Assembly: GCF_032854445.1 (NCBI RefSeq)
Contig: NC_088295.1
Span: 72,818,028 to 72,882,027 of the forward strand
Source: Liolophura sinensis
Taxonomy: Eukaryota > Mollusca > Polyplacophora > Chitonida > Chitonidae
Direction of reading: 5' to 3'
Length of the DNA: 64,000 bases
The position numbers and the translations under genes were made by a program. The notes under the pieces are model-generated. The model had not been told where the DNA came from. It saw only the letters and a program-made list of their open reading frames with translations, and ran no database searches. Positions 30,640 through 50,955 of this stretch are shown one piece after another. How positions within the stretch are numbered: position 1 is the stretch's first letter; each line of letters starts with the position of its first letter.

Positions 30640-30835
30640 GCTGTGAAACAGCGTGGGGCCAAGCTGTAATCAGTACGATACTGCTGTGCATGAGCTCCCC
30701 CTACTGGCCAATGTCCGGACGAACACGTCCACAGAGAGGTCAGCAGGTGACCATCTTCAACACCGACACTAACACTGACCACGTGACTCAACACTTCATA
30801 TCTACCTTGCAGGTGAAAAGTACAATACCTGTAAC
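30640..30835 (+). promoter_or_regulatory. Distal conserved module A (unit 1)
   Basis: Contains GCGTGGGGCCAAGCTGTAAT, then CAGTACGAT, an E-box in GACCACGTGACTCAAC, and AGGTGAAAAGTACAATACCT. The same order recurs at 34945 (+), 41240-41090 (-) and 45150-44965 (-), each time upstream of a duplicated promoter block. It lies 1.65 kb before the 32487 start. The role is inferred: it could be an upstream promoter, an enhancer or a 5' non-coding exon. Confidence 0.55.
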
Positions 30836-32117
30836 AAATCTCCTATAATAAGTCGGACAAGAACTGGGATAGAGCCGTGATAATCTTTTCAGATTAAATA
30901 CTCATTATATCGTCACCTTGGACCATATACTTCATTGTTTTGTAAAGACTCGCATTGGGTCTATAGTAATAGTGTGAGAAATCACACAAGCGATTGCTAA
31001 GTACATCAACACGGGGGTCTCGCGAATGAGTGTTCCCGTGCAAACACTGGCATATAAAGTCAGCCGGTTTGCTGGTCTTGATAAGAGATCGGATGGATCT
31101 CAGTGAAGATCGAAGGCCAACGAGACCTAAAGCGATATCTTCATCTTTTCTTCAAGTGTATACACAAACCACGAGATCTCCACCAGTGTTTCTACTGTCT
31201 CACGAGGTGAACGTGATTATATAAGGTGGTGTTGAGATAAAGAATCCCAGAGAGCTTGCAGTAAGTACTTATCATTTCAGAATTTTGTAGTGCTATTTTC
31301 TTTTTTCAAATTAATATTGTCACTAATAATTCGCGAAAAGTCATTGTTGCCGTTAGGTTTGCAGTTCTCTGTAAATATGTCACATTTCAGACGTGTTGAC
31401 TAATGACAAAGATGGGAGAAGCATTTGGCTTTCTAAGAGGGATATTTTAGGAAAGGGATGCCAGCAGCAGTACAATTGGGATAAAATAAAAATACATACA
31501 ATATATTCAAAATTAAAGAACTTCATATATCAAAATATATTTGTAAATGGAGGTGTATGCGCTATTAGTCTTCAGATTTGAAGCACAAATATACATATGA
31601 AGTAAAACATCGTTTATATGTTGTGTGGTGGGGCCTATAACTGACTGATTGAGTTTCGGATGTTCCAATCCAGTTCCAGTCTTGTTCCAGCTGGTTCAAT
31701 CCCGTGTTTTCCCACTCATAAAGCCTGCCGTCTTATCTATTCGTGAACTATTGTGCAGCATGGTGTAAATCCCAAATCAAAGTTATACATAACTATTTCA
31801 TTTGAGATCATATATGCCTACCGTTAATAGTTTTGACTTATGGTGCAGCTGAGATGTGACCAAATCGCTCATGTACTGGCTGACATCTCGTATACATAGG
31901 CCAAGCCAATGAAATCATAATTGCTGATAACGCCGTATCCGAATTCTGAGAGCCACTAACATGCAGGTACGAAACGAAAGTGTCAAATTGATATGAAAAA
32001 ACGTACAAAGCTTACAGGCAGGGTTATTGTTTAACCCAGTTTCTACGAATCGTAAGTTTACTTAAGTGGTAAAGCACAAAGTTTGGCCTGTCACAATTTT
32101 CGCTGATCTGTGGAACT
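30836..32117 (+). other. Upstream region of the first cluster gene, no gene recognised
   Basis: Lies between the distal module and the promoter block of unit 1. I see no coding exon and no repeat that I can name. Confidence 0.45.
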
Positions 32118-32486
32118 GTGTGTGTAAACATGTAATTACATTGCGATAAACGTCACGCGGCAGGAAGTGGCCACAAGTGACAGGTATTGTCCTTCGCTCA
32201 GTACCGATAAGTAACAGATCGAACAGATTATGTAAGCTATTTACTGTTGTATCAGAACGCCAGGTAGTAAAAGGAAGGTCCGGCTTGATGTAATCTAGGT
32301 TAACTCGACCTCTCCCACACAATGGTTCAGTGGGCTGAGAGTCGCGTGTCAGGCCCTACCCACGGGTTTTAGCCCGGCCCTAATATCTACACGTAAATAC
32401 GGGGAGGGACAAGTTCACAAACCTTCCTCGCTCTGCTTGTGAACAGAAGTTTACTTTCTCTTCTTGACAGTTAGACAGCACCGACC
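32118..32486 (+). promoter_or_regulatory. Proximal promoter block, unit 1
   Basis: About 330 bp shared, with high identity, with blocks at 35395 (+), 40170-39925 (-) and 43655-43292 (-). Ordered sites: GGAAGT (ETS-like, 32163), CAAGTG (E-box-like, 32174) and GATAAG (GATA-like, 32206), then TACTGTTGTATCAGAACGCC and AGTCGCGTGTCAGG. No TATA box is obvious. Just before the ATG is a pyrimidine tract ending GACAG, which could be a 3' splice site of a leader intron. Transcription-factor names are motif resemblance only. Confidence 0.6.
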
Positions 32487-33518
32487 ATGATCCGGTGGTT
32501 ACGGAAACGATGTGGACGATCTAAAGGCCGGAGAAGACGTTCAGACCAAATCTCTGAGGTGGGTCAGGAAAAACTGGATCACATCTATGAGGAAATACCG
32601 GACGTTATTCCTGAAGGTTGTAGGAAGATGAGCACCAGCAACAGGAAGACGCCATCCTTCACTAATCTTGGTCACGTTTCCAGAGTCCCACTGGCAGAGC
32701 CCTGTGGTCAGGCAGGAGAGTATGTCCCCAGCAGAGAGGCGTGTGTCCCGTACATGGTGGTGTCTGTAACCGATGCCACGTCGTGGAGGACAAATTCTAC
32801 AGTAGACAATGTCGCCACCATACCGTCATCCGAGGATGATCTGTGTGCTATTCATCAGCGAGAGAAAACTGTGTACCCCAGGGACAAACCTAGACTAAAT
32901 TGCTGTGATGCAAATCCAAGACTTCAAAGCAGAACGCACATACCTTCTCCAGAGAATAGTGATTCCTTCACAGCCATCGACGGTTCTAGAGTGAGAAATG
33001 TTCTGACTTGGAAGAAAAGTTTCATCACGACAGAAAACGGGACGCCTAGAACAGACGCTACCTCTTGTACAACAGAGGAACATCTTGACATTTCCACCGC
33101 CACTGTTTCTGGCATATTATATGTTAATGATTACTCGTCAGAGGAGTCCTCGAATACGTCCTGCAGAGCTGTATGTGTGCCACGAGACAACAGTATTAAT
33201 ACATCAGATGAAGGTCTCGATGTTTCCTTCACGAGTATATCTAGTTTGTGGTCAGTTGGTTTAGGATCAGATACCGATGGAGACGTAGACTTGGCAGATC
33301 AGCAGGACACGGGGTCTGACACAACGATCTCTGATCCTCATACCTTACCTCAGCTGGCCTCGTCAGAAAGAGTTTGTAATGTAAAACCAAATGTCAGAAT
33401 GTGTGGACAGGTTAAAAATATACCGGTGTCTTGCAAGATGAACTACTTTCCACGGAACAGACTTTTAAATGATCTAATTCAGATGAATTTCCAAAGACAA
33501 ATGTCTTCTCTTGTCTGA
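32487..33518 (+). CDS. Unrecognised YEEI-motif protein, paralogue 1 (343 aa)
   Basis: I do not recognise this family. It is a single open frame starting MIRWLRKRCG, with a strongly basic residue 1-20 region (RSKGRRRR). Next come LDHIYEEIPDVIP (Tyr34), a mid-region YPRDKPRLNCC, a Ser/Asp-rich DEGLDVSFTSISSL, and a conserved basic/aliphatic end, RNRLLNDLIQMN, followed by FQRQM. There is no signal peptide or membrane segment. Y-E-E-I is the classical optimal Src-family SH2 ligand when phosphorylated, and the basic N-terminus could bind acidic membrane or nucleic acid; both are inference. It has a conserved promoter block upstream and AATAAA at 33588. Paralogues lie at 42272, 45614 and 49323. The coding region lacks introns; an intron in the leader is possible. 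Confidence 0.85.
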   Translation: MIRWLRKRCGRSKGRRRRSDQISEVGQEKLDHIYEEIPDVIPEGCRKMSTSNRKTPSFTNLGHVSRVPLAEPCGQAGEYVPSREACVPYMVVSVTDATSWRTNSTVDNVATIPSSEDDLCAIHQREKTVYPRDKPRLNCCDANPRLQSRTHIPSPENSDSFTAIDGSRVRNVLTWKKSFITTENGTPRTDATSCTTEEHLDISTATVSGILYVNDYSSEESSNTSCRAVCVPRDNSINTSDEGLDVSFTSISSLWSVGLGSDTDGDVDLADQQDTGSDTTISDPHTLPQLASSERVCNVKPNVRMCGQVKNIPVSCKMNYFPRNRLLNDLIQMNFQRQMSSLV

Positions 33519-33587
33519 GAAGAATGATATTATTTTGTGTGTGGATAGTGTATTATAGTGCTAAATTTCATTTATATCATACCAGTA

Positions 33588-33593
33588 AATAAA
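33588..33593 (+). terminator. Poly(A) signal of paralogue 1
   Basis: AATAAA 70 bp after the stop, in a 3' flank (AGTGCTAAAT.TCATTT... TAAATAAAA) that is conserved with the flank of paralogue 2. Confidence 0.7.
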
Positions 33594-33752
33594 AGGGCAT
33601 AGCAGTTATCTTTGCATCATGTTCGCTTTAATACGCTTCTCCGATCTTTTGTCGTAAAATGTCACTAGTTAAATCAGGCGTCGAGATCGTTTAGCATGTG
33701 GCATTAATAGATAACCATTCATTCCTGCGTGTAGTTTCAGTAAAATGGAGTT

Positions 33753-34048
33753 TGCGGTCGCTGTGAGTTCAAGTCCAGCTCATGCTGGCTTCCTCTTCGG
33801 CCGTAAGTGTGAAGGCCTGGGATTGACCTGCGGATGGTCGTGGGTTTCCCTCGGGGAAATGAACGGTTTCTATGTGCTTGAAGTATCACATTAAGCACAA
33901 ATAACTGTCATTTTCATGTTAGTAATACAGATTTGTCCTGCTAAACACTACACCTGGTTTCCTCCCACCATAATGCTGGCTGCAGTCGTATAAATGAAAT
34001 ATTCTTGAGTACGGTGTACCAAAACACCAATCAAATAAATAGATAAAA
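33753..34048 (+). mobile_element. Composite SINE: family A interrupted by a 96-bp segment
   Basis: The SINE head (GGTCGCTGTGAGTTCAAGTC) runs to CCCTCGGGG, is then replaced by 33857-33952 (ATCACATTAAGCACAAATAA, CATGTTAGTAATACAGATTT), and resumes at GGTTTCCTCCCACC to the AATAAATAG tail. The same inserted segment joined to the same tail position is found at 43710-43905. Confidence 0.8.
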
Positions 34049-34165
34049 AGGTGTTTGATTGGGAATGAATGAATAATTGGACTTTAATGTGTCAGTCCTT
34101 CGATCCAGGCTGAAGACACACTTGCCGACTAAAAATATTCGGGTCACTTGGTGGACACTATCAAA

Positions 34166-34544
34166 CGCATTAAGGGTTATAATTACAATACGCTGATATC
34201 TGTTCGTAGTTACGCATTAAGGGTTATAATTACAATAGGATGATATCTGTTCGTAGTTACGCATTAATGGTTATTATTACAATACGCTGATATCTGTTCG
34301 TAGTTACGCATTAAGGGTTATAATTACAATAGGGTGATATCTGTTCGTAGTTACGCATTAAGGGTTATTATTACAATACGCTGATATCTGTTCGTAGTTA
34401 CGCATTAAGGGTTATAATTACAATAGGGTGATATCTGTTCGTAGTTACGCATTAAGGGTTATAATAATTACAATACGCTGATACCTGTTCGTACTTACGC
34501 ATTAATGGTTATGATTACAACACGCTGATATCTGTTCGTAGTAA
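34166..34544 (+). repeat. 47-bp minisatellite, 8 copies, with dimeric pattern
   Basis: Unit: CGCATTAAGGGTTATAATTA, CAATACGCTGATATCTGTTC, GTAGTTA. Copies 1-6 alternate between a CGCTG form and a GG(A/G)TG form, indicating expansion partly as a 94-bp dimer. Copy 7 carries a 3-bp insertion. Confidence 0.93.
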
Positions 34545-34944
34545 CAGAATTTTTTCTAACAAGCAGTGGTGGCGATATTAATTATTACCATCATACAGAT
34601 TCCTGGTAGACGTCTTCTACTTTATATATGACTGAGTATAGACTTTAGTATAATGCGATTAGATTGGGTACTTCCTGACAGCGCCAAACTAATCGCGGGA
34701 TTATGACATTAAATCAAACTTATGTATACTGTAAGCAGAGGAAGTCCCGTGGGAAAAAATGAACATTTTTTCCTAGCGTACACTCTATGACGTGTGTCTG
34801 GACCTGTGAAGCCCTTGTATATGCGTATGTATTTTAAATATTTACATATACAAAATATAATATTTTGAATGATATGTTTTGATTCTGTGGACGCAATAGT
34901 CACTGTTGAACCCCATGTCTGGTGGTATGTGTGAGATTTGTCAG

Positions 34945-35085
34945 CGTGGGGCTAAGCGGTGGTCAGTATAGATAACAATCTAACCGGGCCTTGCTGAGGT
35001 CACCAGGTGTGGATTTCAGCATCATTGCTAACTCTCCTTTAACCCAAACCACTTGAATTACAGGTGAAAAATAACAATACCTACA
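34945..35085 (+). promoter_or_regulatory. Distal conserved module B (unit 2)
   Basis: TTTGTCAGCGTGGGGCTAAG, CGGTGGTCAGTATAGAT and, at the end, AGGTGAAAAATAACAATACC. This is the same order as module A but only about 0.45 kb from its promoter block. A (GA)n run follows at 35104-35122. Confidence 0.55.
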
Positions 35086-35394
35086 TTAAGTCTTTAAAGC
35101 TGAAGAGAGAGAGAGAGAGAGGGAGGAATAACTCCAAGCTGAGATAGGGTGTGCAGATCCTGCCTTATTTAAGAACACGTTATATAATTTGAATTGTTTA
35201 GAATCACAGTTATAGAGCTATGTGGTGCGTTAGCGGGGCGTGTTGTGTTCCCAAGCAGAAGAACGGGTTTGAGACTTCTTTTCTTTGCACTGTACAGCAA
35301 AGAGGTAAAACTGACAAGCAAATTATGGTTATTTGTGTATAATGTAGTACTTGAACCACATTGATGTGTTACAGAACAATGTTTCAGCTGTCAA

Positions 35395-35745
35395 ATTTTG
35401 CACAATCCTATGTTCGTTGTGTGTAAACATGTAATTGCATTACGATAAACGTGACACGGCAAGGAAGTGGCCACAAGTGACAGGTATTGTCCCTCACTCA
35501 GTACCGATAAGTAACAGGTCGGACAGATCATGTAAGCTATTTACTGTTGTATCAGAACACCAGGTGGTAAAAAGGAAAATCGACTCATTGTAATCTACAT
35601 TAACTTACCTCTCCCACGCATTAATGGTTTAAAGAGGCGAGAGTCGCGTGTCAGCTCCTATACCGACCTGGGGAATTATCCGACCTGATCAAATCTCTTA
35701 GAGGTTTAGGGGAGGGGCAAACGTAACAAATGCCCCAACCCTGCT
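35395..35745 (+). promoter_or_regulatory. Orphan promoter block, unit 2 (no gene attached)
   Basis: Near-copy of the 32118 block, with GGAAGT at 35463 and GATAAG at 35506 (43 bp apart, as in unit 1) and GAGTCGCGTGTCAG. After it the similarity ends and no MIRW reading frame follows. Upstream homology with the inverted unit 3 extends back to about 35235 (AAGCAGAAGAAC..GGTTTGAGA). Confidence 0.7.
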
Positions 35746-38700
35746 TAAAACGTCATAAGCATGTTCTTATATTTATTACAGGAGTCTCAGATCTTTCGTG
35801 TAAATGAGTTAAAAGATAAGACAAGAAATAGTTTAACATTATAGTTATTTCGGAAGAGAAGCAACAGCAGAAGCAGACCTAAACGACCTCAAACAAAGCA
35901 CGTGGTATGGTAAGGTGGGGGGATCGGGCCCAGCGCACGAAACAGTGCAACCCAAGAAGCGAAACTAACTATTGCTGTGATTGACAGCTGCTCACACACT
36001 CGTATGGCTGCTTTCTTTTTGAGTTCTGCTTTCTGCGTTCTGCTGTTTTTTCCTGTTATGTGGCAAGTATGCGACTTATAAAGATCCAAACATACACTGA
36101 AGCAATGTATAGGTTATAAAATGGAAAAATCGTAGCCTGTTTCAATCACACTGAAATGTCTTTTTCCTTTTTGCATTAGACACTGTGGAGTGGGGAAAAT
36201 CACGACACCACACATGTACCTTTCTGAAAAATTCTTGAACGTGCACCAATCAATTGAATACATACATTTATACAACAAATGTTCAGCCTTATAGTTCCGC
36301 TACGCATAACGTGCACTCAACCAGGATTCACTTGAATATTGTTACCACAGGTTACGTAATACCATAACTGAACAATTTAACATAATTTAACAATTATCCA
36401 TTCTAATTCATAATAACACTTATTTAATGCAAGACAGCCCATATCTTTGCTCACACGAAAATATGTTGCGAAAGAAAAAAAAAGAACCACAAAGATTTGA
36501 AATCTTCCTAGAGGTGCAACCTATTTTCCATGATGACTGCCTTAGTCTCTGTACTACGAAGGATACCTGACAGACAGTGGCACAAATACGGATTTCAAAC
36601 TTGCCAAAATATAAAAACTGATCACAATATAAAGTTTATTTTTTACATATGAAGACAAAGGTCAACCAAAAAGAAACCTTGATAACACGTAGAAATATAC
36701 ACATGAAAGCTTTCGTAAATATATTTTTCTGGTTAACGTGGATCTTCTTACTGTAAATTAAAGACAGTTCCTCGTTTGAGAGAAAAATTGGCTTTTATGA
36801 TCGAGAGTGCATTTTCGGTGGGTTATTACAAACCAACCATCTCTTTTATGGCCATATAACTTTTAAGGGTGATTAGACAAAGTTTTATCATTCTAACCTG
36901 GAAATTTACAGAATTGTGATGGGATTTTGAAATTTGCACTATCTAATCATACCTCTCTTTATTGTCACCAGTTAATACTCATATTAGCTAGGTTCGTAAT
37001 GGGTATTAAAGGTTCACTGAGGACATACCGTCGGCTGAGTGATCATATACGCTATAAACAACACAGGGTCGCCCTTGGAAACAATTCACTTTGGCACAGG
37101 GAATGAGTGGACGTATAATATGATTATAACAGTCACTTCTGGTGAAAGAAAAGTTAAACCAGACCGACAGATTATGTTATTATGGAGCTGACGAGGATAA
37201 TAAGAAATTCGATTTTAACTTCGTGAGAAAACTTCTTATACAACACCATTACTGTGTGTATAGGCCTGTGTCCTTAAGAGGTAAACTGGGGTCTCGGTAG
37301 CTTCTAAATGGTTTAAGTTTTAGCTCAATGCGACTGTCAAGTCTTTGGCCAATGAAGTCGCTTGTTCGAATTCAATTCTCGCTGTTTCCGCTACTGCTTA
37401 AGGTCAAGAAAATCGATTTGACCCTGGGATTCCCGCTTCCTCCACCCATGGAACGGATCGCACCCCTCGTCTCTTATATGTGGAACATTTCTGTTCCCCC
37501 TAACAACCAGACAACATTGTCACGTAACCGGGCGGAGAAACAGTTTAAAGATAACAAAACTTATTGACAATTTCAGACTTATGACGAAAATTGTTTAATC
37601 CACTGTTCACTGTCATTTGCCGTCAAGAGGCACTAATACAGTTATCAATGAATGGCAAATTAAAACCAGATGAAAGAATTTTACATTGCCCAAGACCGTT
37701 ATTCAGATAGGACAAATTTGCACATTGAAGCGAAATCAATGAATTTCACATTTCCCAAAGCACATATATAGATATGACTGAACTGCCAGTTAAAGTCATG
37801 TAGATCGAAGACTTTCACCATTCCAATCGTAATGACTACTGTATAGTAGTTTGTTGGTGTTTTCCCACGCACCCTAAGCTCGCTGTTATAATATCTAAGA
37901 TTTTATATCATAATCCTCCAGGATTTGTATTTGTTTATGTTGGCATAATCCGGAAGTGCTTATTCCAATCATGTTATGTGGCGGTCACATGCGCGGGGGT
38001 GGATATCTTAATGGGTGATCCGATAACAAACCATACCGCATGCTGCATGGGAAAATGTATAATCCTGGATGAAAAACGTCATATCGTTGTTAGTTGACCT
38101 GAAACTATCCCGAGACCCTAAGGCGATAGACCAAGCCTCACACAGGATAGTATTTTTACTACTACGGATTTATTGCAGTTGTTTTAATGTTCCAATTTTA
38201 TCTGTATTAAAGTATTTCCCTAATGAGGACTTAGTACACTGTCGTCTATTAACAGGGAAATAATAACCTTCAGTGTACATGCATCTTATATTCATTATTA
38301 AAGTGAAGGAACGCTAAAAAATGAAGTAACGTTCATTAGATTGACAGCTGACACTGTGCGTAAAAATACTTAATTCATTTATTTTTTTTAGATTTTTGAA
38401 AAGAGAGTTACATAAATCAAATTTTTGAAATACATGGTGGGCTTCAGGAACATATAGCTGCTGTTTAGGTGCTCTGACGTCACAAGAGGTTTTTACTCCT
38501 CTAAAAAAACTTCTTTTAATGGTGGAACAACTCTTATTACTAATTTGTAAAAGATAACCGAAGTAATGTTCTAATAAAATTCTTGTATGGGCGATATTAT
38601 ATACTTTGAGTGGGAAAAGTATATAAAATAGGAGTAAACATATTTTTAGAGGCAGTTTTCAATTGATTTTGTCATATTATACTCAATTCATTTTATGCGC

Positions 38701-38904
38701 TTTTTTTTCATTAAACAGGGTAAGAATATTATGATGTCATTGTTGAAAATAATGAGGATTCGTGGAGGTCTTGTCAATAACAAATGTCTATCCTAATGCA
38801 CATCCAACTTAATAGGGTGACTTTTCCCGCTCATGGAGAATCGGGTACAAGCTGAATTGACCGCTGTTCACTTTATGAATATAAAGTTACCAGTTTTACC
38901 ACAA
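35746..38904. other. Centre of the inverted array, no gene recognised
   Basis: The symmetry axis of the + + - - array falls near 37.8 kb. I found only a short degenerate SINE tail around 36220-36270 and possible family B-like sequence near 37360-37440. No exons or RNA genes. Confidence 0.45.
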
Positions 38905-39058
38905 AACGCCATGGTCTGCCAAAAGCCTGTGGATGGTCGAGGGTTCCCCCCGGGCTCTGCACGGCTTCCTCCTAACACAATGTTGGCCACCGTAGTATAA
39001 GTGAAATATTGTTGAGTACGGCGAAAAACACCAATCAAATAAATAAATAAATAAATAA
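38905..39058 (+). mobile_element. 5'-truncated SINE family A
   Basis: From GGTCTGCCAAAAGCCTGTGG through GTGAAATATTGTTGAGTACG to a tail of five AAAT units. The head is absent. Confidence 0.85.
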
Positions 39059-39196
39059 CGTCGTTGCAAAGGCAAGGATAAACAATAGACTAGACAAGGT
39101 CGGAAAAGTTTGGAATACGTGTACCTAAACTGATGGACATCCAAATAGCATCCAAATAGTTGGGGTATTAGAATGACAAAATAGACCAGTTCAGGA

Positions 39197-39260
39197 CACA
39201 CATCTGTCTTTGGAAATCGATCTGAATTAAGTCATTTTACAGTCTGTTCCGTTGTAAGTA
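39197..39260 (-). pseudogene. C-terminal remnant of a YEEI-family gene, with stop
   Basis: On the minus strand this reads Y-L-Q-R-N-R-L-stop-N-D-L-I-Q-I-D-F-Q-R-Q-M, the family C-terminus with TAA (complement of 39237-39239) where intact copies have Leu. It lies about 665 bp downstream of the minus-strand promoter block at 39925-40170, where an intact unit would place the gene end after about 1 kb. I could not recognise the body of the gene between them, so it is deleted or diverged. Confidence 0.8.
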
Positions 39261-39924
39261 TTCCGTACGACACTCAACGCTTGATGAAGAGATTGCATCA
39301 GGTAAGTGATGTAAGGGTAGTATTAAAGCCTTTACTTGAATGCTGTGTTTCACCTGTTACGTGTGACCATTTGCCAGATATGGCAATATCTGTCTCGTCG
39401 CTGCTCTGATTTTATTGTCTATGATGTATGTCTGTAATTATAATATATCCCAGAATTTGTTCATTCGCATAGGGAGAATTGGTTGTATATCCAGTCACTG
39501 TCTTCTACAGCTGTCCTCGGGTCACCAGATGCTATGGTGGAGAAAACACAGATATAACAGATATAACTCTGAAATGTAGTAAGTGCCCGCATTTGTAAAT
39601 GATATATGCGTGACTGTACCATTGGAATACATCTGTTCTAAAGAGACTTTTTTTGTCTAGTACCATTTACAGCTATCAATGAAAAATTCTCTGGTGCTTT
39701 AAGCTTGGTTAGCGATCGTAGACTAGTATATACTCAGTTTGTTTTTGTTGTTTATACATAACTTCAGATCGCCAGCTTAACCACCGAATCCTGCTCTGTA
39801 CTAGCAATCAAGAAGAGAAAGTAGATGTCAGTTCGCAAGCAGTGCGGAGTACTTTTATATATTCTGCCCGTGCCTGTGAAGATTTGAGTGTGCTGACGGT
39901 ATGTAACTAATAAATACTTCTGGG

Positions 39925-40170
39925 TGCGGGCTGACACGCGACTCTCGGTGCATTCAACCATTGTTTGGGAGAGGTCAAGTTAATGTAGATTGCATCGAGC
40001 CGACCCTCCTTTCTACTACCTGGTGTTCTGGTACAAGAGTAAATAGCTTACATAATCTGTCCTGTCTGTTACTTATCGGTACTGAGTAAGGGACAATGCC
40101 TGTCACTTGTGGCCACTTCCTGGCCGTGTGACATTTATCGCAGTGTAATTATATGTTTACATACAGTGAA
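39925..40170 (-). promoter_or_regulatory. Orphan promoter block, unit 3
   Basis: Reverse-complement copy of the family block: ACTTCC at 40115 and CTTATC at 40072 again 43 bp apart, CACTTGTGGCCAC between them, and CTGACACGCGACTC at its gene-proximal end. Homology with unit 2 continues outward to about 40320. It drives no intact frame; the C-terminal remnant at 39197 is what is left. Confidence 0.7.
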
Positions 40171-40320
40171 GACATTTGTGTCAAATACGACAACAGAAAC
40201 AAATGCGGTTCAAGTACTACATTATACACAAAAACCATAATTTACATGTCAATTTTATGTATTTGCTGTAAAGAGTTCTCAAACCAGTTCTTCTGCTTCG
40301 GTACACAACGAACCATATAA

Positions 40321-41089: not shown

Positions 41090-41240
41090 AGCACCATAGG
41101 TAATAGCCATAAAACCCACACCAGCTGACCTAAATTGGCCGTGGTCTGTTGTTCGGACACTGACCATGCACCGCTTAGCCACACGCTGACAAACCTCAGT
41201 GGCGCCACCGGATATGTGGTTCAGTATTCACTATCTACTG
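41090..41240 (-). promoter_or_regulatory. Distal conserved module C (unit 3)
   Basis: On the minus strand: TTTGTCAGCGTGTGGCTAAG, CGGTGCATGGTCAGTGTC. Same order as module B. The terminal AGGTGAAAA element is not clear here. Confidence 0.5.
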
Positions 41241-41544
41241 CGTTCATCTAATCGAAACTTACCATTCATGATATCATATATTACAAGTCCCTTGTATGTA
41301 CCAACTACGAACATGAAAATAATGGCGTCACAGAGCGAGAACTCGTACACGAGAGTGGGATGTGCCTGAAGGTACTTATTTGTCTTTCAGTTGCCATTAC
41401 CCACGAGGTGCGGGCCCAACCATGTTAGAACGTTTCCCAGTTCTCACTGTTGGTGAAGCCTTGGTGACAATAACCGGTGGACGAAGCTCGTGTGGCCGTT
41501 TGCACAGTCTACCGTTCGTGAAAGACCACTTGTTTTCTAATAAG

Positions 41545-41660
41545 GTATACACTAATAGTTTTTAGTTTTCCCCACATGCTCATATGTCCTCCTCACATAA
41601 AATTGGCCGCCATCATATAAGTGAAACATTTTCGAGCATAGCGTTAAGCCACAACCAGCG
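41545..41660 (+). mobile_element. Degenerate SINE family A tail
   Basis: GGCCGCCATCATATAAGTGA, AACATTTTCGAGCATAGCGT and AGATAAAT resemble the tail with several changes. Confidence 0.5.
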
Positions 41661-42197
41661 AGATAAATCGTACATGAAAGCCTTACTCCTTACATCTGTA
41701 AACGATTTCATATTTCCCACGGTACTTCTCTCTCCTTAGAGTGCACGTACAAAATCGTCAAACTTTCCTGTTGTATTTATGATTAAATATCATAATCCTT
41801 CATGATGCGGTTAGTTTGGCGCTACCTATGTAAGTACTTATTCTAATCACATTCCACTAAAGTCTATAGTCCGTCACATAATGTAGAAACATTTTACTGG
41901 GAATCTTACATGCCCGCTGCGGCCTGCTGGTGGATTCCCTTTCTATATATGGACAGACATCGTTCTTATGCTCCCTATACTGATTTTGAAAATGTCTCCA
42001 AAGTGAACTGAATATCTCATAACCATCACCTAGTCCTTTTCACGTGGATTTATGGACTGAAATTTTTTTGGTTTTATTGACGCTATATGGAGAACAAACC
42101 GTCCTTGTATGGACAACGTCGTTATGAGAGCTCGTTACAAGAAATAATAAAAGACGCTTAAACCAAGAAGACAACGAACATGCAACTATTTCTGGTT

Positions 42198-42203
42198 TTT
42201 ATT
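42198..42203 (-). terminator. Poly(A) signal of paralogue 2
   Basis: TTTATT on plus (AATAAA on minus), about 70 bp after the stop of the 42272-43291 gene. The flanking sequence is alignable with that after paralogue 1. Confidence 0.7.
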
Positions 42204-42271
42204 CAAGGGTATGAAACAAATGAGATTTAGCACTGTATGTGTCAATGACCAAGATGATGCCATGTTGATGA

Positions 42272-43291
42272 TCAGACAAGAGAAGACATTTGTCTTTGGA
42301 AATTCATCTGAATTAGATCATTTAAAAGTCTGTTTCGTGGAAAGTAGTTCGTCCGGCCAGACACCGGTATATTTCTAATTTGTTCACACATTCTCACATC
42401 TGGTTTTGCACCACTAAACCTTTCAGGCGAGGTTCTGAAATTTTCAGAGATCCTTCTATCAGACGACGAGTCCTGTTGATCTGTCAAAGCAAGGTCTCCG
42501 TCTGTATCTGATCCTAAACCATCAGACGACAAACTGGATACACTCGTGAAAGAAACATCGAGACCTTCATCTGATGTATAAATACTGCTGTCTCTTGTCC
42601 AACATTCAGCTCTGCAGGACGTACTCAGGGACTCCTCAGACGTGTAACCATTATCATATAATCTATCAGATACAGTCGTGGTAGAAATCCCAAGATGTTC
42701 CTCTGTTGTATTAGCGTTAGCATCTGTTTTGAACATAACGTTCTCTATCTTGACCAACCTCTCCTCCGAAGTCAGAAGACTTCTCTCCACAGAACCATCT
42801 GTGGCTGTGAGGGAACTGCTACACTCTGAAGATGATATATCCGTTTTGTTTCGACATCTCGGAATTGCGTCACAACAATTTAGTCTAGGTTTATCCCTGA
42901 GGTACACAGTTTTGTCTGGCTGATTATTGGCACACAAATCCTCCCCGGATGACAGTGTGGTGACGACATTATCTACTGTAGAATTTGTCTCCCACGATCT
43001 GGTATCGGTTACAGACACCACCATGTACGGGACACACGCCTCTCCGTAGGGGACATACTCTCCTGCCTGACCACAGGGCTCTGCCAGGGGGACTCTGGAA
43101 ACGTGACCAAGATTAGTGAAGGATGGCGTCCTCCTGTTGCTGGTGCTCATCTTCCTACAACCTTCAGGAATAACGTCAGGTATTTCCTCATAGATGTGAT
43201 CCAGTTTGTTCTCACCCACCTCAGAGATTTGGTCTGAACGTCTTCTCCGGCCTTTAGATTGTCCACATCGTTTCCGTAACCACCGGATCAT
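42272..43291 (-). CDS. Unrecognised YEEI-motif protein, paralogue 2 (339 aa)
   Basis: Inverted partner of the 32487 gene. The first ~80 residues differ from paralogue 1 at only a few positions and the last 25 are identical (from NYFPRNRLLNDLIQ on), while the middle third differs heavily with small in-frame gaps. It keeps the basic N-terminus, HIYEEIPDVIP (Tyr34), RDKPRLNCCDA and DEGLDVSFTSVSSLSS. The single open frame argues against decay. The promoter block at 43292-43655 and the distal module at 44965-45150 sit at spacings like those of paralogue 1, so the whole unit was duplicated. Function unknown. Confidence 0.85.
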   Translation of the reverse strand: MIRWLRKRCGQSKGRRRRSDQISEVGENKLDHIYEEIPDVIPEGCRKMSTSNRRTPSFTNLGHVSRVPLAEPCGQAGEYVPYGEACVPYMVVSVTDTRSWETNSTVDNVVTTLSSGEDLCANNQPDKTVYLRDKPRLNCCDAIPRCRNKTDISSSECSSSLTATDGSVERSLLTSEERLVKIENVMFKTDANANTTEEHLGISTTTVSDRLYDNGYTSEESLSTSCRAECWTRDSSIYTSDEGLDVSFTSVSSLSSDGLGSDTDGDLALTDQQDSSSDRRISENFRTSPERFSGAKPDVRMCEQIRNIPVSGRTNYFPRNRLLNDLIQMNFQRQMSSLV

Positions 43292-43655
43292 GGTCGGTGC
43301 TGTCTAACTGTCAAGGAGAGAAAAGTAAACGTCTGTTCACAAGCAGAGAGAGAGAGGCTTGTGAACTTGTCCCGCCTGGTGTTTCCCTGTAGAGCTTAGG
43401 GCCGGGCTAAAACCCGTGGGTAGGGGCTGACACGCGACTCACGGTCCACTGAACCATTGTGTGGGAGAGGTCAAGTTAATGTAGATTACATCAAGCCGAA
43501 CCTTCCTTTTACTACCTGGCGTTCTGATACAACAGTAAATAGTTTACATAATCTGCCCAATCTGTTACTTACTGGTACTGAGTGAGAGACAATATCTGTC
43601 ACTTGTGGTCACTTCCTGGCCTGTGACGTTTATCGCAATGTAATTATATGTGGAC
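43292..43655 (-). promoter_or_regulatory. Proximal promoter block, unit 4
   Basis: Reverse copy of the family block: ACTTCC at 43611 is kept, but the GATA-like site 43 bp away is altered (CCAGTAAG on minus instead of CCGATAAG). The pyrimidine tract ending TTGACAG lies just before the ATG, as in unit 1. Confidence 0.6.
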
Positions 43656-43709
43656 ACGAGATTGTGTATACTTGGACAAGTGAAACATACTTCTCAAGCA
43701 CATAAATAT

Positions 43710-43905
43710 ACGGTTTGTATGTACTTGAAGTTTCACATTAAGCACAAATAACTGTCATTTTCATGTTAGTAATACAGATTTGTCTTGCTAAACACTTCAC
43801 CCGGTTTCCTCCCACCATAATGCTGGCCGCCGTCGTATAAGTGAAATATTCTTGAGTACGGTGTAAAACACCAATCAAATAAAAAAATAAAAAAATAAAC
43901 ACTAC
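43710..43905 (+). mobile_element. Composite SINE, 5'-truncated (extra segment plus family A tail)
   Basis: 43710-43800 matches 33857-33952 and is joined to GGTTTCCTCCCACC at the same SINE position. It continues to GTGAAATATTCTTGAGTACG and an A-rich tail. It is in plus orientation although the surrounding unit is inverted, so it was inserted independently of the inverted duplication. Confidence 0.8.
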
Positions 43906-44964
43906 ACGGAAACAAATGGAGGTCTTTGTTGTATGAGTGAATACACTGAGGTTGATTATTTATTATTGTTGTTGATAAAACATCTCCGAATACCTTTCCT
44001 GTAGACTAATTTGTATGAAAGGAAAGACAGGCAAGCAAAGTGTAACTCAGCACTATAGGGCTTTTCTTTCCCTGGTAAGCTTCAACAGCTGAGTGTTAAA
44101 GATTACAAAATAGTGAGTGAAACGAGAGCAGAGAAGACTGTATCCAGCCACTTGTCATGTTACCTCAGTTACAATTTATTCCAACTGTTCATGAATATAC
44201 TTGAAAGCAGCAAGACACTCCCTAGAAATGTTAAGTAAAATTGTAGGTAAAAAAATGAAGAGATGAAAGTTGAAAATTATTTGATCTCTGACGAAGACAT
44301 GGCCTTGAATGGCAAAAATCCTGCTGGCTGACGTAACAACAGCTGGCTATAAATAAATAATGATTATTTAATGGATAGGATTTATGCCACCTCTACCCGG
44401 CGATTCATTCTATATGTGGAACAGCGAACAATATTTTCCCAATGGCGCAACAGTAAAAGTGCCTAGCATGAGCGCCAGTCCTTATCTCCAGGCGAGCAAA
44501 ACGATGTACAAGACAAATTGTCATAGTAGGTTGAGCACAAGGCATATTTATCGTTCTTGGAACACTGTATTTCGAGAGGAGCTTGTTAGGTTGTGCTTTT
44601 TCCCAAAGCGTCCAAGATGTAATTTGGTCTTAAGAGTTAATAATGATGAACATTTTAACTGACGTATGTTACTTACAATGTCAACTAGGACATCCACTCC
44701 TGTTCTACTTTCTCTCTCTTCAACATTCACCTCGTTTAGACGTGTATATGTCTAGATGAGATCTGTATCGTCTCTCCCAATTCATATTTTGGCTAGACTT
44801 TAAATACCCACGTCTTGTATGGTGTTTGGAACAATCGCACAGCCTGATTAGCTGACTGTGCTGATCACCTGTGGTGTCACCGTGTAAAGAGCTGGATATC
44901 TCCTGAGGTAAAGATAGTGAGGCTTATCACAATTCTGGTTTATTTTCATATGGCTGAAGAAACT
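43906..44964. other. Intra-cluster spacer, nothing recognised
   Basis: A 92-codon plus-strand frame at 44384-44662 has no recognisable domain or family resemblance and is probably chance. Confidence 0.4.
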
Positions 44965-45150
44965 TGTATTAGGTATTGTAATTTTCACCTGGTGGACTGG
45001 GAAAGTGTTTAGTCACGTTAAATCGATACCTGCTGACATGGTCAGATCTTCCGAACACTGAGTAGTGGCCACAGTGAGAGCACCAACAGAATCATACTGA
45101 TTACCGCTTAGTCTCACGCTGGTACAGGACAGAGATACCCTCAAACATGG
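44965..45150 (-). promoter_or_regulatory. Distal conserved module D (unit 4)
   Basis: On minus: CAGCGTGAGACTAAGCGGTA, ATCAGTATGAT, CATGTCAGCAGGT and AGGTGAAAATTACAATACCT. It lies about 1.7 kb upstream of the 43291 start, mirroring module A at 1.65 kb from paralogue 1. Confidence 0.55.
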
Positions 45151-45613
45151 GGTTCAACACTTCTCGATGATGTCACAGATTTTAGGCGTTATATATCTGA
45201 TGTTGTTGAAGTACAAGCGAAACTGTTTGGATGATGATACCCTTAAACATGGGGCTCAACGCTTTTCTAAGGTATCTCTAAGGGATTTTAAACGTTATAT
45301 ATCTGATGTTAGTGAATTACAAGAGAAACTGTGTGGATGAGGATCGGCCGTGCCGACTCTCGTCAAATGAGCCCTAAAAACAAATTCTCAGAAATACAGA
45401 AAGCTAATGCGTAACAAACACTTATATCACACCCTAGAAAACAACCATTAGTATTAGAAGGAATTCCTGGAAAATTATGGAACAAAACAGATCTGAATTT
45501 CAATGAAACATATATTTTCAAAGATGTCATCTGTACAATATATAAATCGGAATTTCTTTATACAAATTTTACGCGTAACAAATAATTCAGATTTAATGGT
45601 ATGTGATCATGCA
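45151..45613. other. Spacer downstream of paralogue 3, with a short direct duplication
   Basis: Two diverged copies of GATACCCTCAAACATGGGG...TTTTAAACGTTATATATCTG occur at about 45137-45210 and 45236-45310. No gene recognised. Confidence 0.5.
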
Positions 45614-46381
45614 CTAATACACGACCAGCATTTGTCTATCATTATTTAGTCGGATAATGTCAGATAACATTCTATTTTTAGATCTGTAAACCTCCGCCCC
45701 GTTTTGAGATTTGTCCGGTCTGTAGATGGCTGTGATGTCTTTTCTATTCTGAGACATTTTAGTTTTTGACGAGATCTCGATACTTGGTGGAATCGCCGGT
45801 TTATAGCCATATAGCTTGGACCGTTTGTGCCTGGAGGAATTATGGATGGACTTTTGGCGATTGATCGTTGTAGAGTTTCTCACTGATGTCGTAACTTGAC
45901 TGTCCTCGTCTCTGAAAGCCAAATTTCGACATGCGTGTCGGAAGTTGTGAAGGTTTTGTAGCTCTTTGTGTGATGGTATGTGAGTGGGCAGCTCTGCCAT
46001 GTCCACATATTCCTCACTGGACAGAAAATCCCCCGAGTCCTTTAACTTCACGTTGTAAGTCACCGTCACATAGCGGTTTTGAATTCTGTCACAAAGATGA
46101 TTGGGGTGTCTGGCTGGTCTCCCCTCGTGCCCTAAGGCTGAATGATCTTGATGGTAAGTTGCTGATAGTGTGCCTACGCAAAAATCTGTGCTCTGGTGTA
46201 AGCGTGATACGTCTATCCCTGTCTTGGTGACCAAATCTGTTTGTGGTCTTGGACCCCTTTCTGTAGGTATGAGGTCGGGAATCTCCTCGTAGATGTGACT
46301 CTCTGAGTCTGTACACGTCACCTCATTATCCTCGTGTCTTCGTCGGCGGCCTGTCAGACGTTTACGGAACCACCGTATCAT
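45614..46381 (-). CDS. Unrecognised YEEI-motif protein, paralogue 3 (255 aa)
   Basis: A diverged family member: MIRWFRKRLT, a GRRRRHE patch, SHIYEEIPDLIP (Tyr31) and an ending SKNRMLSDIIRLN. The frame is open for 35 codons further upstream, but those codons overlap a TATA-like box (46468-46475), and all relatives start at MIRW, so 46381 is the chosen start. Mid-protein it carries KDSGDFLSSEEYVDMAEL. DSG-x3-S resembles a beta-TrCP phosphodegron and Y-V-D-M a PI3-kinase p85 SH2 ligand; both are motif resemblance. Function unknown. Confidence 0.8.
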   Translation of the reverse strand: MIRWFRKRLTGRRRRHEDNEVTCTDSESHIYEEIPDLIPTERGPRPQTDLVTKTGIDVSRLHQSTDFCVGTLSATYHQDHSALGHEGRPARHPNHLCDRIQNRYVTVTYNVKLKDSGDFLSSEEYVDMAELPTHIPSHKELQNLHNFRHACRNLAFRDEDSQVTTSVRNSTTINRQKSIHNSSRHKRSKLYGYKPAIPPSIEISSKTKMSQNRKDITAIYRPDKSQNGAEVYRSKNRMLSDIIRLNNDRQMLVVY

Positions 46382-46467
46382 GTTTTCAGACGAGTGAAAT
46401 CCACCTGTAGATGTTGCTTGTCCGGCGGTCTGCATTGGGTGTGTATAGTTCTGAATCAACGGTGCTG

Positions 46468-46475
46468 TATTTAAA
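46468..46475 (-). promoter_or_regulatory. TATA-like box of paralogue 3
   Basis: TTTAAATA on the minus strand, about 90 bp upstream of the MIRW start codon and inside the upward extension of the frame, which supports the downstream start. Confidence 0.5.
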
Positions 46476-46489
46476 GGGATACTCATCAG

Positions 46490-49125
46490 CCCGATCTTTT
46501 AATTAGTGACACGTTTGACAGTGATAAAAGAATGCATTTCTTAAACAAACAATTCTACATTTAATCTGCATAGAAGACATAACGGTAAATCCCTGCCAAT
46601 ATAACTGTCAACCGTTATAGTGCTAAGCTAACTGGCGACACGTGACTGCGAGACTTTGTGTTGGCGGGAGTAACGCTCCGTTTAGTCACGTGGCAAGTTG
46701 ATCATGTCATTTGTTAGGCGGTTGACCTCATGAAAAGTGCTCTCTGTAATTAACGTCATATCCAGACTTAACTGAAAAATACTCTCAAGTACTGTAGAAT
46801 GTGTTGTTGTAAGTAATCTATCTAAATGGGAGTATTCCTTGCACATCTAATGTGACAGACAATTTAAAATTCAGTTTGCCATGGAAGGTATATCATAAAG
46901 GCTCTGTGGCCTCTTGAGCAGTCGGTCTGACGTTCATTATCTTCGACCAATATGGTGTTCATATCTGTACGTCTCGTGTGAGAAAGTTCGTCAGTAACTT
47001 GTCAGATGCGGGTGGTTTATCATAGTGGTTTCCGCCACTTATAAACTGAGCACTATCATATAGGTCATCAATTTTTTTTGGTATAGTGTTATAAACCAAG
47101 CAGATAAGTACATCAAACAAACCTCTGGTTCCATGCTTTATAATTACACACAGTCCCTTTTATATCCAGCGCGTCGATACACAGGTGTAAGCGACTTTTC
47201 CGGATAATATGGCATTTGCACACTAAAAAACATTCCCTGTGTATTTTAGCTTCGAAACAGAGTACCTTAAACTTCGTATCTGTACAAATCAAATTTGAAA
47301 CTTTGCACTTGTTCTACATGCATGTTGAACCAATTTATGCACTAATAAGTATTCTAATTTAGATGTCTTTCAACAATTCTTGAATTTCCATAATAAAGGC
47401 TTTTCTGGACAGTATGAAATCATTCCAACGAGAAGGCGTAACTTGCTTAGCCCATAATTATGAACATGTGTCTGTCAAATAAATTAAGTTTTTCACTTTT
47501 ATATTAAGTCTAATCACAGACTTCTCAAATTAGGCATTGGTGAGAATTGCTAATACGGGTTGTACATTTCTCTGTACAACAAGTTGAATTAAATCAAACC
47601 TACAATGTTCACAAGTTCGGAGAATGTAGTTAGATTCTTTGTTAATTGTTGGTCCAGTTTAGTAAATGGCGATGGGAATCTCACATAATCACCACATATC
47701 TGGATTTGACACCTTTGCCTTGAGAGGCTGATTACATTAAAACAGCATGTTAATGGTTAACTAAGGAACTCAAAAGGTGTAGTATTAGTTAAGGCGTCCC
47801 GACCACTTGTAACACAACGGGTATCCTCGTAAACCCATAGGACCACGTGATACAACGTGTGGTGAGAGCCCCGTGGCTACACACGTGTGGTGCTTGATAT
47901 CCTGTTCCTTGTTAAACACGAAATATTCTTAAAAGCAGGTTTTGGTGAACATCCACAACATTTCGTCGTCTAGGTAAAGCGTTACCAGACAACTCATTTT
48001 TTGAACAAGTGTCGATAATATGTCCAGGTCTGGTTCTGGGTTGTCGATGGTGTCGTTCTGGTCGTAAAGCCGTGATCAAGTCTTAGGCATATGTACACTG
48101 GTAATGACAATGCCAGGTGTTTGGGTTTCAGACTCAACCACTGTCCAGATCCTCGAGCAATTAATCTGGCGATTTTTTCATGAATCATACTGAATTCAAC
48201 TAAATTCTCAACATTTATAGACGTTTGGTCTTATATGTATCATTCTTGTGATAGACAAAATATTTTATGTCAGCTAGACATCAAACAGGGCTGATATTTT
48301 CGGAGCTTCGATCTCTTTACATGCTCGTCGATTTAGCTTTTGTCTTCTCCTCGCCGTTCACATTCTGATGTGGTCACTCATATTAGAGTACAACTAAAAC
48401 ACAACCAAAACAAGAGACTCAAAGTTACCAATCTGCAAAATATATGGCACTAATGACAAGTGCTAGAAAATCCTATCTGCGATTTTTGATCATTGCTGAT
48501 ATTATATCCTGGAGGAATATCGGGCGTACACTCTGGTGACGTATACCACATGATAATTTCTTTGACGAACATTCAAACTTCCCAAAGGGCAATGTTACAT
48601 TAGGCGTCGTAATGTGTGTTTGCTGCCACTAGGGCTTCCCCACACAGGTTAGCACACACCGACCACGGCTTAGTTCATGGATTATGAAACCCGATGGTGG
48701 GGGCGTGGGTGGGTGGCACGGGTTTGTTAGCTTATCTTACAATCGAGAGATTCACCAGGTGGCGGAGATTTAACAGGTAAACATCAAGACTTAAGTTTAA
48801 CTAAATAGCTTCGAACATGGCACATACTCTGATAACATGAAGGTTACACCAAACCCCGTATCAGTCTTGTCACAGGGTAGTTATCTGCCATAATATGTAT
48901 ACCATTATGTATTCAAGCACCATGGCAGAGAACAAACCGTCAGGTAAACACGATTTTCGGCCAGTCTACTCAACTCTCCTGCGACTAATTTCTATTTTAA
49001 CACTGTAAAATGTGAAAGAAAATTCTACAACGTCAAGTGCACAGATCACCACAACAATAAGTATCCAGGATAATTACAGAACGAAGATAAAGAACTGGTT
49101 ACATCTATAAGCTTTTTCATACAGA
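46490..49125. other. Intra-cluster spacer, no gene recognised
   Basis: Two CACGTG E-boxes flank a GC-richer patch at about 46640-46700 (GACACGTGACTGC..TTTAGTCACGTGGC). They could be regulatory for paralogue 3. No exon, SINE or RNA gene otherwise. Confidence 0.4.
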
Positions 49126-49129
49126 AAAT

Positions 49130-49135
49130 TTTATT
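49130..49135 (-). terminator. Poly(A) signal of paralogue 4
   Basis: TTTATT on plus (AATAAA on minus), about 190 bp after the stop of the 49323-50201 gene. Confidence 0.5.
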
Positions 49136-49322
49136 TTTCGGATTTAAAAGATGACAGTGTATCCGTAAAAATATGGCCACTTAAAACAGCACTAAAATTT
49201 ACTCTCTGAGCACAGTTACATATTATGACATAGAACATGCAGATTTCATCAAATAACGTCTCTGTTTAAATATGAAATCCACCACAACGTTTGATGTGTA
49301 AAGAGAATATACATGGAAACCA

Positions 49323-50201
49323 TTAAAATGCCAGCATTCGTCTATCATAGTTGCCTCGAATCAAATCGTCCAACAGCCTGTTTCTTGAGCTGATCAGGCG
49401 AGGGTGCGAGCCAGTAACACGGCGTCTGTTTCTGTCAACTACTGAATGTTTTTCTTTTGGCACCAAACCCCGCGATGCTACGGGCAAGGATTTGTGTATT
49501 ACGACCTTTTCACATCTCACGCCTGATACACAAATGTCATCTGAGTACACATCTGATACATAAACGTCGGATTCACAGACGGACGACAAACTAGACACTG
49601 ATGTGAGAGACATCCCGTCGTCCATGTCTGGTTGTTTTGTGCATTGAGTGATGTGTATCGTGGGCCTAATCGTTAGTTGTGTATTGTCATACACGGATGA
49701 GTCGACATCTTCGTGAGAATGGTAACAGGACGCTCTCACACAACTGAGTTTGTCCCGTGGACAATACGAATACACAGTTTCTCCAGAATACGTGGTTTCC
49801 TCCGCATACCCGGTTTCCTCCTCGCCTGCAGACATAACCGTTTCTCCGGCAAAACCGTCTGAAAGTCGTCCTAGTTTGTTCAGCTCTTCGGCCGAATCCA
49901 AGCAAGACGTCGGCGTTTCATAAGAGCACAAGCTTTCTGATAGCGAAGCCACGGAGTAGGGTTCACCGCTTTCTAACATGGAGTCTTCTGCGTCCATTGA
50001 TACACCCGATGTACCCACCAAAAAGAAGGACGGCATGCTGTCACTACGTATCCCTCTCCAGCCTGTAGGGATAACATCGGGAATTTCCTCGTATGTGTGG
50101 TCGAGGAAATCAGTTCGAGATTCGTTGGGAGAATTCGACTCGATGCCGTCTGGCTTCGGTTTACGGGAACGTCTTGTGTGCTTTTTGAGCCAACGAATCA
50201 T
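49323..50201 (-). CDS. Unrecognised YEEI-motif protein, paralogue 4 (292 aa)
   Basis: Family member with MIRWLKKHTR, a basic RRSRKPKP stretch, LDHTYEEIPDVIP (Tyr37), a CPRDKLSC segment matching RDKPRLNCC of paralogue 1, DDGMSLTSVSSLSS, and an end SSRNRLLDDLIRGN. Between these lies an acidic Glu/Thr/Tyr-rich tract (ETVMSAGEEETGYAEETTYS). The open frame extends 34 codons upstream to 50303, but a TATA box at 50321-50330 would place the transcript start about there, and relatives begin at MIRW. A pyrimidine tract ending TTACAG lies 6 bases before the ATG, so a short leader intron is possible. Confidence 0.82.
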   Translation of the reverse strand: MIRWLKKHTRRSRKPKPDGIESNSPNESRTDFLDHTYEEIPDVIPTGWRGIRSDSMPSFFLVGTSGVSMDAEDSMLESGEPYSVASLSESLCSYETPTSCLDSAEELNKLGRLSDGFAGETVMSAGEEETGYAEETTYSGETVYSYCPRDKLSCVRASCYHSHEDVDSSVYDNTQLTIRPTIHITQCTKQPDMDDGMSLTSVSSLSSVCESDVYVSDVYSDDICVSGVRCEKVVIHKSLPVASRGLVPKEKHSVVDRNRRRVTGSHPRLISSRNRLLDDLIRGNYDRRMLAF

Positions 50202-50320
50202 CTTGACTGTAACAGAAGAGAATTGGTATGAGAGGGATCTAGAGGACTGTGTGCTCGTCGACATGACTGTCACTGATCTAAATGACGAGGAGAATGTGAA
50301 CACAGACTTTCATACATTTC

Positions 50321-50349
50321 CTCTATATACCCTGCCTGGGCCACTTATC
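50321..50349 (-). promoter_or_regulatory. TATA box and GATA-like site of paralogue 4
   Basis: GTATATAGAG on minus (50321-50330), with GATAAG (complement of 50344-50349) directly upstream in the context AGATAAGTGGCC. GATAAGT is also a conserved element of the promoter blocks of units 1-3. Confidence 0.6.
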
Positions 50350-50864: not shown

Positions 50865-50955
50865 GTCTCCTCACCCCAAAATGCAGGTGGCCGTCGTAAG
50901 TGTCAAATATTCTTGAGTACGACGTAAAACAGACATCAAATGCACAAATAAATTA
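50865..50955 (+). mobile_element. SINE family A tail fragment
   Basis: GGTGGCCGTCGTAAGTGTCA, AATATTCTTGAGTACGACGT and AAATAAATTAAA match the tail. The head is missing. Confidence 0.7.

Follow-up and report, generated by a model that had tools for sequence, protein, structure and literature searches.

Within a 64,000-nucleotide stretch of the genome of the chiton Liolophura sinensis (contig C1, 72.82-72.88 Mb of a 609 Mb assembly; hereafter the window), we found a cluster of four intact genes, c1 to c4, that belong to an undescribed protein family, known to date from chitons alone and larger than the four open reading frames (ORFs) of the window. Judged from their letters, the four genes encode real proteins, and three shared blocks, one of them with the tyrosine motif YEEI, are under purifying selection. 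As a function, with a probability of about one in two, we propose disordered proteins on which Src-family SH2 domains dock: a dispersed pair of genes elsewhere in the genome would offer SH2 and SH3 ligands together, and the cluster the SH2 half only. The assembly was published under another species name (PMC11068029), later corrected to L. sinensis (PMC12441733). The genes of the cluster are as follows.

32487..33518, forward strand: c1, intact single-exon coding sequence, 343 aa
42272..43291, reverse strand: c2, intact single-exon coding sequence, 339 aa, 73% identity to c1
45614..46381, reverse strand: c3, intact coding sequence, 255 aa counted from MIRW
45614..46486, reverse strand: longest ORF of c3; in-frame upstream ATGs at 46435 and 46486 give 273 and 290 aa
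49323..50201, reverse strand: c4, intact coding sequence, 292 aa counted from MIRW
49323..50264, reverse strand: longest ORF of c4; the in-frame ATG at 50264 gives 313 aa

All four paralogues that the first-pass annotation had listed at 32487, 42272, 45614 and 49323 are present. Their stop-to-stop frames of 347, 343, 294 and 328 aa (c1 to c4) each exceed the longest frame of any simulated window (128-237 aa, n=40, first-order Markov model). The genes c1 and c2 form an inverted pair and share upstream blocks, which bears out local duplication. Identity to c1 drops to 21% for c3 and 30% for c4; the c1/c2 pair is recent, and c3 and c4 are older.

An alignment recovered in all four ORFs the three blocks that had been noticed at first: MIRW followed by basic residues, H-x-Y-E-E-I-P-D-x-I-P, and a C-terminal N-R-[LM]-L-x-D-[LI]-I-x-x-N-x-x-R-x-M. 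The second and third lie at these positions.

32580..32612, forward strand: H-I-Y-E-E-I-P-D-V-I-P in c1
43166..43198, reverse strand: H-I-Y-E-E-I-P-D-V-I-P in c2
46265..46297, reverse strand: H-I-Y-E-E-I-P-D-L-I-P in c3
50067..50099, reverse strand: H-T-Y-E-E-I-P-D-V-I-P in c4
33456..33515, forward strand: conserved C-terminal tail of c1, predicted helix (predicted local distance difference test, pLDDT, about 60)
42275..42334, reverse strand: conserved C-terminal tail of c2
45617..45676, reverse strand: conserved C-terminal tail of c3
49326..49382, reverse strand: conserved C-terminal tail of c4, predicted helix (pLDDT about 60)

With the three blocks pooled, synonymous divergence (pS) was 0.79 for c1/c3, 1.05 for c1/c4 and 0.85 for c3/c4, and non-synonymous divergence (pN) 0.15, 0.16 and 0.18 in the same order; overall, c1 or c2 against c3 or c4, together with c3/c4, gave a pS of 0.79-1.05 and a pN of 0.15-0.18. 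In the YEEI block of c1/c3 alone, there were six synonymous changes on 6.7 sites and one non-synonymous change on 26.3. Synonymous sites are near saturation while the residues hold, and the proteins are therefore under purifying selection.

Between the blocks the frames stay open, as had been remarked, for 196 codons in c3 and 228 in c4 (chances of 2e-6 and 2e-7 at window composition). The centres of c1-c4 had been called low-complexity and fast changing; they are fast changing, but Ser/Thr-rich rather than plainly low-complexity. The centre of c1/c2 has a ratio of non-synonymous to synonymous rates (dN/dS) of 0.68, substitutions spread over the codon positions as 42/54/44, a single 12-base indel and no stop, for which the neutral chance was 0.017 (4000 trials). 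Substitution there is near-free and yet the frame holds no stop; therefore it must stay open, while its letters matter little. The synonymous rate (dS) of c1/c2 rises from 0.025-0.07 at the ends to 0.34 in the centre, and part of the likeness of the pair may be recent. Gene conversion of the ends, hinted at by these values, was set aside, with 3 of 52 fourfold sites changed in the ends and 10 of 62 in the centre (p = 0.14; p values at fourfold sites 0.12-0.14, not significant).

The family extends beyond the window. The coding pattern H-x-Y-E-E-I-P-D occurs five times in the whole genome, always within the family, and zero times in a reversed control; the five loci are c1, c2, c3, c4 and one at C1:43408935 (c7). 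The latter is a single-exon ORF of 417 aa with MLRWFKKR, HIYEEIPD and NRLLSDLIMKNN, and a protein search found it 100% identical to LOC135461439, an 'uncharacterized protein' of L. sinensis. A sixth intact member lies 3.3 kb from c7 on the other strand.

C1:43413322-43414599, reverse strand: c8, 425 aa

The blocks of c8 read MFRWIRNR, NHIYEEIEE(P) and NKTLRDLIRDN, it also holds PVKPPR, and its middle matches that of c7 (GSDV..YE..LSK.EQLR..E.E, E = 2e-7). It escaped the genome pattern because P-D is replaced by E-E, and other variant-motif members may exist elsewhere in the genome. The clustering first described stands as a local cluster of four, but two more intact members sit outside the window at C1:43.41 Mb, and LOC135461439 differs from the cluster genes in being longer, in its c8-matching middle, in its SH3 ligands and in being one of this outlying pair. 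By profile, no further members were found in the 40 kb that flank the window on each side or in the roughly 45-55 kb that flank c7/c8 on each side.

A large protein database held four relatives, which we take to come from other chitons: P0002 (83% to c7), P0003 (74% to c4), P0004 (59% to c3) and P0005 (52% to c3), the last with no apparent one-to-one partner in the window. The genes c1-c4 themselves did not come up in profile searches, even with all four or with c1, c3 and c4 in the profile, though c7 did, and from this absence they seem unannotated. These searches were of limited sensitivity –one missed P0003-P0005, another P0001 and P0002– and cannot show absence outside chitons. Five exact family peptides had no occurrence in the literature texts searched. 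In an unrooted tree, which came with a long-branch warning, a single branch supported at 99/99 separates the clustered from the dispersed type.

These relatives also bear on the gene starts. The listed starts of c1 and c2 hold, whereas those of c3 (46486) and c4 (50264) are uncertain, as the MIRW Met lies further in, at 46381 and 50201, in c4 with a good splice acceptor 5 nt upstream. In P0003, 16 of 21 residues of the c4 extension are kept, and in P0004, 9 of 17 aligned residues of the 35-residue c3 extension; because they are partly kept, both extensions may be coding.

The MxRW-basic N-terminal block, followed within about 50 residues by H-x-YEEI, was present in 10/10 sequences (c1-c4, c7, c8 and P0002-P0005). 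With their own group left out of the N-block profile, c1, c3, c4, c7 and c8 were found at E values of 5e-13 to 3e-5 (c8 left out: 2.3e-5), and the best outsider reached 0.11 or worse; these leave-out profiles were built from an alignment made with all rows. The tail N-x-x-L-x-D-[LI]-I-x-x-N was likewise found in 10/10 by alignment, and its leave-out profile recovered c3 (3e-5), c4 (1e-6), c1 (0.006) and, weakly, c7 (0.03). In the relative of c4, 19/19 tail residues are kept, and in that of c3, 17/19 aligned.

YEEI, first proposed as the family motif, is kept in all ten sequences, with an expectation of 0.00 per shuffled protein. SH3 ligands of both classes are present in all three dispersed-type sequences (c7, P0002 and c8), in GPELPPR and HPVKPPR (PxxPxR), and in 0/7 of the cluster type (c1-c4, P0003-P0005); where present, each class was expected 0.09-0.35 times per protein by chance. 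A second tyrosine motif, YVDM, which is of the p85 SH2 type, was observed in c3 (residues 125-128 from MIRW; 45998-46009, reverse strand) and in P0005, with HVDM in P0004; by chance, Y-x-x-M is expected 0.25-0.41 times per protein (c3, P0005).

Under the docking reading, the basic N-terminus (MxRWxRKR-like) would hold the protein at an acidic surface, the plasma membrane or the nucleus, a tyrosine kinase would phosphorylate YEEI, and the SH2 domain of a Src-family kinase would dock on phospho-YEEI. The C-terminal tail would recruit a second partner, with the long, little-constrained linker as a tether. Members c7 and c8 could engage SH2 and SH3 domains at once, thereby opening the kinase and scaffolding it; those of the cluster would be SH2-only docks or competitors. 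We infer SH2 binding from the motif, and likewise infer phosphorylation, SH3 binding and the tether and competitor roles. The notion of a small adaptor, raised at first, gains indirect backing from the pairing of YEEI with SH3 ligands in the two dispersed relatives. A bolder version, which we hold to be doubtful, has a dispersed pair of Src-docking scaffolds, each with SH2 and SH3 ligands, and fast-evolving, SH2-only cluster paralogues competing for the same kinase: SH2 competitors encoded by the animal's own genome, like viral YEEI proteins but unrelated to them.

Several known systems resemble these proteins in part. CAS-type Src-binding dockers combine SH2 and SH3 ligands, as c7 and c8 may do with YEEI and PxxPxR, but Pfam found no SH3 domain in the chiton proteins scanned, and the cluster members have no SH3 ligand. 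Two proteins with the YEEI core are the middle T antigen of hamster polyomavirus, a viral oncoprotein, and Mint1 (X11alpha), which has PTB and PDZ domains. The chiton genes differ from middle T in having no Pfam match and a gene structure of cellular type that probably includes a 5' intron, and from Mint/X11 in that no Pfam family (hence no PTB or PDZ) was found in any member scanned. The YEEI core of middle T (pYEEI, Y324) binds the SH2 domains of Src, Fyn and Lck, and a pYEEI fusion bound that of Src at about 0.5 uM (PMC3858276). The N-terminal region of Mint1 holds EHVYEEIGD (Y202), which is phosphorylated by c-Src and recruits c-Src (PMC4982022). This motif is strikingly close to EHIYEEIPD of c7: around the shared YEEI core, both have H at position -2 and D at position +5.

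The sequence properties are those of a family without a name, as first stated: no Pfam family was found in any member scanned, and a PDB sequence search gave no match beyond chance for family members. Exportin-1 was rejected as a tail match (E 0.19 over 12 residues, independent E 2.2), as was the sole PDB match of the N-block profile (E = 7). AlphaFold2 gave mean pLDDT values of 35 for c1 and 37 for c4, from alignments of four sequences, so shallow that the low values are weak evidence for disorder. The tail was the only long helix (c1 also has a 4-residue helix at 2-5). Thus, the helix-like tail of the first description is predicted, but weakly, and the models hint, with little force, at intrinsically disordered proteins with a weak C-terminal helix. 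The N-terminus is basic, as claimed, its first 25 residues carrying a net charge between +1 and +8 (ten sequences). No transmembrane helix was found in the ten (highest 19-residue hydropathy mean 1.07), and Gly2 for N-myristoylation in 0/10, P0003 and P0004 being taken with their extensions (their MxRW starts carry I and F there); the features of transmembrane phosphotyrosine adaptors (LAT/PAG type) and of N-myristoylated adaptors were both absent. An amphipathic helix at the N-terminus or tail was dropped, since the moment lay within shuffles except at the c4 N-terminus (0.031).

Some observations weigh against docking on Src-family kinases. Conservation runs past the YEEI core, with P-D kept in 9/10 sequences. 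The SH3 ligands start 31-34 residues past the Tyr in c7 and 77-80 in c8; they do not align and are perhaps not the same ancestral site, and chance alone would give 0.3 ligands of each class in c8, which is basic and rich in Pro. The c8 tail was not found when left out of its profile (E = 10), and the hydrophobic moment of the tail is no higher than in its shuffles. Finally, expression of c1-c4 may be low in the tissues on which the annotation drew.

The same conservation past YEEI would suit a family that uses the motif otherwise, a possibility that we consider unlikely: YEEI would act unphosphorylated, as a Y-x-x-Phi sorting signal or the core of an LC3-interacting region (LIR), or the basic end would be a nuclear localisation signal of a protein working in the nucleus. 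YEEI formally fits both Y-x-x-Phi and [WFY]-x-x-[LIV], and N-termini such as RKRLTGRRRR resemble nuclear signals. However, Y-x-x-Phi and LIR patterns occur at roughly the frequency of shuffled sequences (some proteins exceed it, others fall short of it), there is no transmembrane segment such as sorted cargo has, and E-E-I is invariant in 10/10 sequences; we know of no sorting-signal or LIR use that requires exactly E-E-I.

The history and control of the cluster can be read from its flanks. Broken copies, as had been reported, are present, and the upstream features are listed here.

39192..40165, reverse strand: c5, broken copy that retains the leader, lacks an ATG at the start position and has a stop within the tail
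35418..35660, forward strand: c6, leader-only remnant
32119..32358, forward strand: leader block of c1, recurring at c2 (43417-43657, reverse), c5 (39921-40165, reverse) and c6 (35418-35660, forward)
30644..30916, forward strand: distal upstream block of c1, recurring before c2 (45126-44876, reverse)
41063-40930, reverse strand, and 34996-35093, forward strand: weaker matches to the distal block, at c5 and c6
32449..32470, forward strand: splice acceptor of c1, ending 16 nt before the ATG and equalled by 0.3% of 7371 AGs scored
31053..31266, forward strand: possible first exon of c1, with TATAAA at 31053 and a candidate GTAAGT donor at 31261

The leader (~240 bp) is 85% identical in c1/c6 (245 columns), 87% in c2/c5 (236) and 77% in c1/c5 (a longer stretch, 393), with 40 changes in 366 sites for c1/c2. 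No leader block above chance was found upstream of c3, c4 or c7. The best score before c3 only equals the largest shuffle, and the one strong match before c4 (score 94) lies, by coordinates, within a SINE-like repeat (short interspersed nuclear element; see below). The leader persists even in units whose coding part is broken or lost, and may be a regulatory element that is maintained independently of the genes. The distal block scored 90 before c2, 58 before c5 and 53 before c6 (largest of 40 shuffles each: 49.5, 41 and 37); it did not exceed shuffles before c3, c4 or two control stretches (40 each), nor chance upstream of c7.

A splice acceptor stands just 5' of the start in five of the six intact genes. 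That of c2 is the same as in c1 (16 nt before MIRW), those of c4 (5 nt) and broken c5 are alike, each equalled by 1.0% of AGs, and by eye acceptors lie 28 nt upstream of the start in c7 and 38 nt in c8; scored against the AGs of the window, none is strong before c3. In c1, c2, c7 and c8 the ATG is closely preceded by an in-frame stop, which in c1 falls between acceptor and ATG. This points to a non-coding first exon and a putative 5' intron ahead of the single coding exon. The candidate first exon of c1 compared with its c2 counterpart was not above shuffles (score 43, largest shuffle 68).

Among ten upstream stretches scanned, none had an NF-kB, IRF or heat-shock consensus and two had STAT-like sites. 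A scan of the leaders for 19 transcription-factor motifs gave ETS and FOX matches in 4/4 each, and CACGTG is in excess before c3 (3 sites) and occurs once each before c1 and c5, in a table that counts palindromes twice; neither is decisive. A CACGTGACT(M)AAC element before c1, c2, c3 and c5 was not above chance in the window (5 hits, reached by 13 of 100 shuffles). Structured RNA in the leader was also rejected, the covariation term being only -0.88 (4 sequences), and Rfam gave no match at gathering scores.

The first-pass annotation had suggested an inducible adaptor or decoy and a family of the arms-race or stress-response kind; spelled out, the cluster would be an inducible immune or stress family in an arms race, its copies being decoys that mop up a kinase exploited or targeted by parasites. 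Local duplication, two broken copies and fast centres agree with this, as do P0005, seemingly without a one-to-one partner in the window, and the lack of SH3 ligands in cluster-type sequences. However, the scan of the upstream stretches gave no support to induction or stress response, the dN/dS of the fast c1/c2 centre is not above 1, and conservation is highest in those parts that presumably do the work. We regard this explanation as rather improbable.

Relaxed, mostly silent duplicates, with only the dispersed pair functional and the cluster decaying, seem an improbable account as well. The absence of c1-c4 from the returned database proteins, the breakage of two of the six cluster units and the flat distribution of c1/c2 centre substitutions over codon positions would fit it, but comparisons with c3 and c4 show strong purifying selection on the blocks, the tail is kept in the relatives of both, and a stop-free c1/c2 centre has a neutral chance of about 0.02. 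A viral or transposon origin, suggested by several short copies with repeated leader blocks, is hardly credible: no confirmed relatives were found in viral, bacterial or archaeal contigs or in phages (c1 as phage query), the shared upstream blocks and coding parts resemble segmental duplication, and acceptor placement is common to cluster and dispersed genes.

If docking on Src-family SH2 domains is the true function, an animal lineage would possess a growing repertoire of textbook Src SH2 ligands of its own, in which evolution splits sharply between frozen docking motifs and free linkers. Nature would thus offer a clean case in which to study the minimum that a signalling scaffold needs to retain. 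The analysis also proposes a testable function for LOC135461439 and points out four genes of this chiton genome that are apparently missing from its annotation.

The ten longest other ORFs of the window gave only two Pfam matches, both sub-threshold. A dispersed repeat, which we label SINE-like, with the tail ATAAATAAATAAA, is also found near c7 and, by eye, just upstream of the c8 start. It and the other repeats of the window are given below.

1404-1673, 8003-8143, 22398-22667, 25834-26103 and 33753-34049: copies of the SINE-like repeat
38913-39053, 43704-43893, 50857-50952, 54015-54264 and 56499-56644: further copies of the SINE-like repeat
34118-34590, 24497-24855, 9111-9256 and 6344-6538: tandem repeats with units of about 47, 27, 28 and 49 bases, respectively
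11675-11958: a 142-bp unit duplicated in tandem with 99% identity

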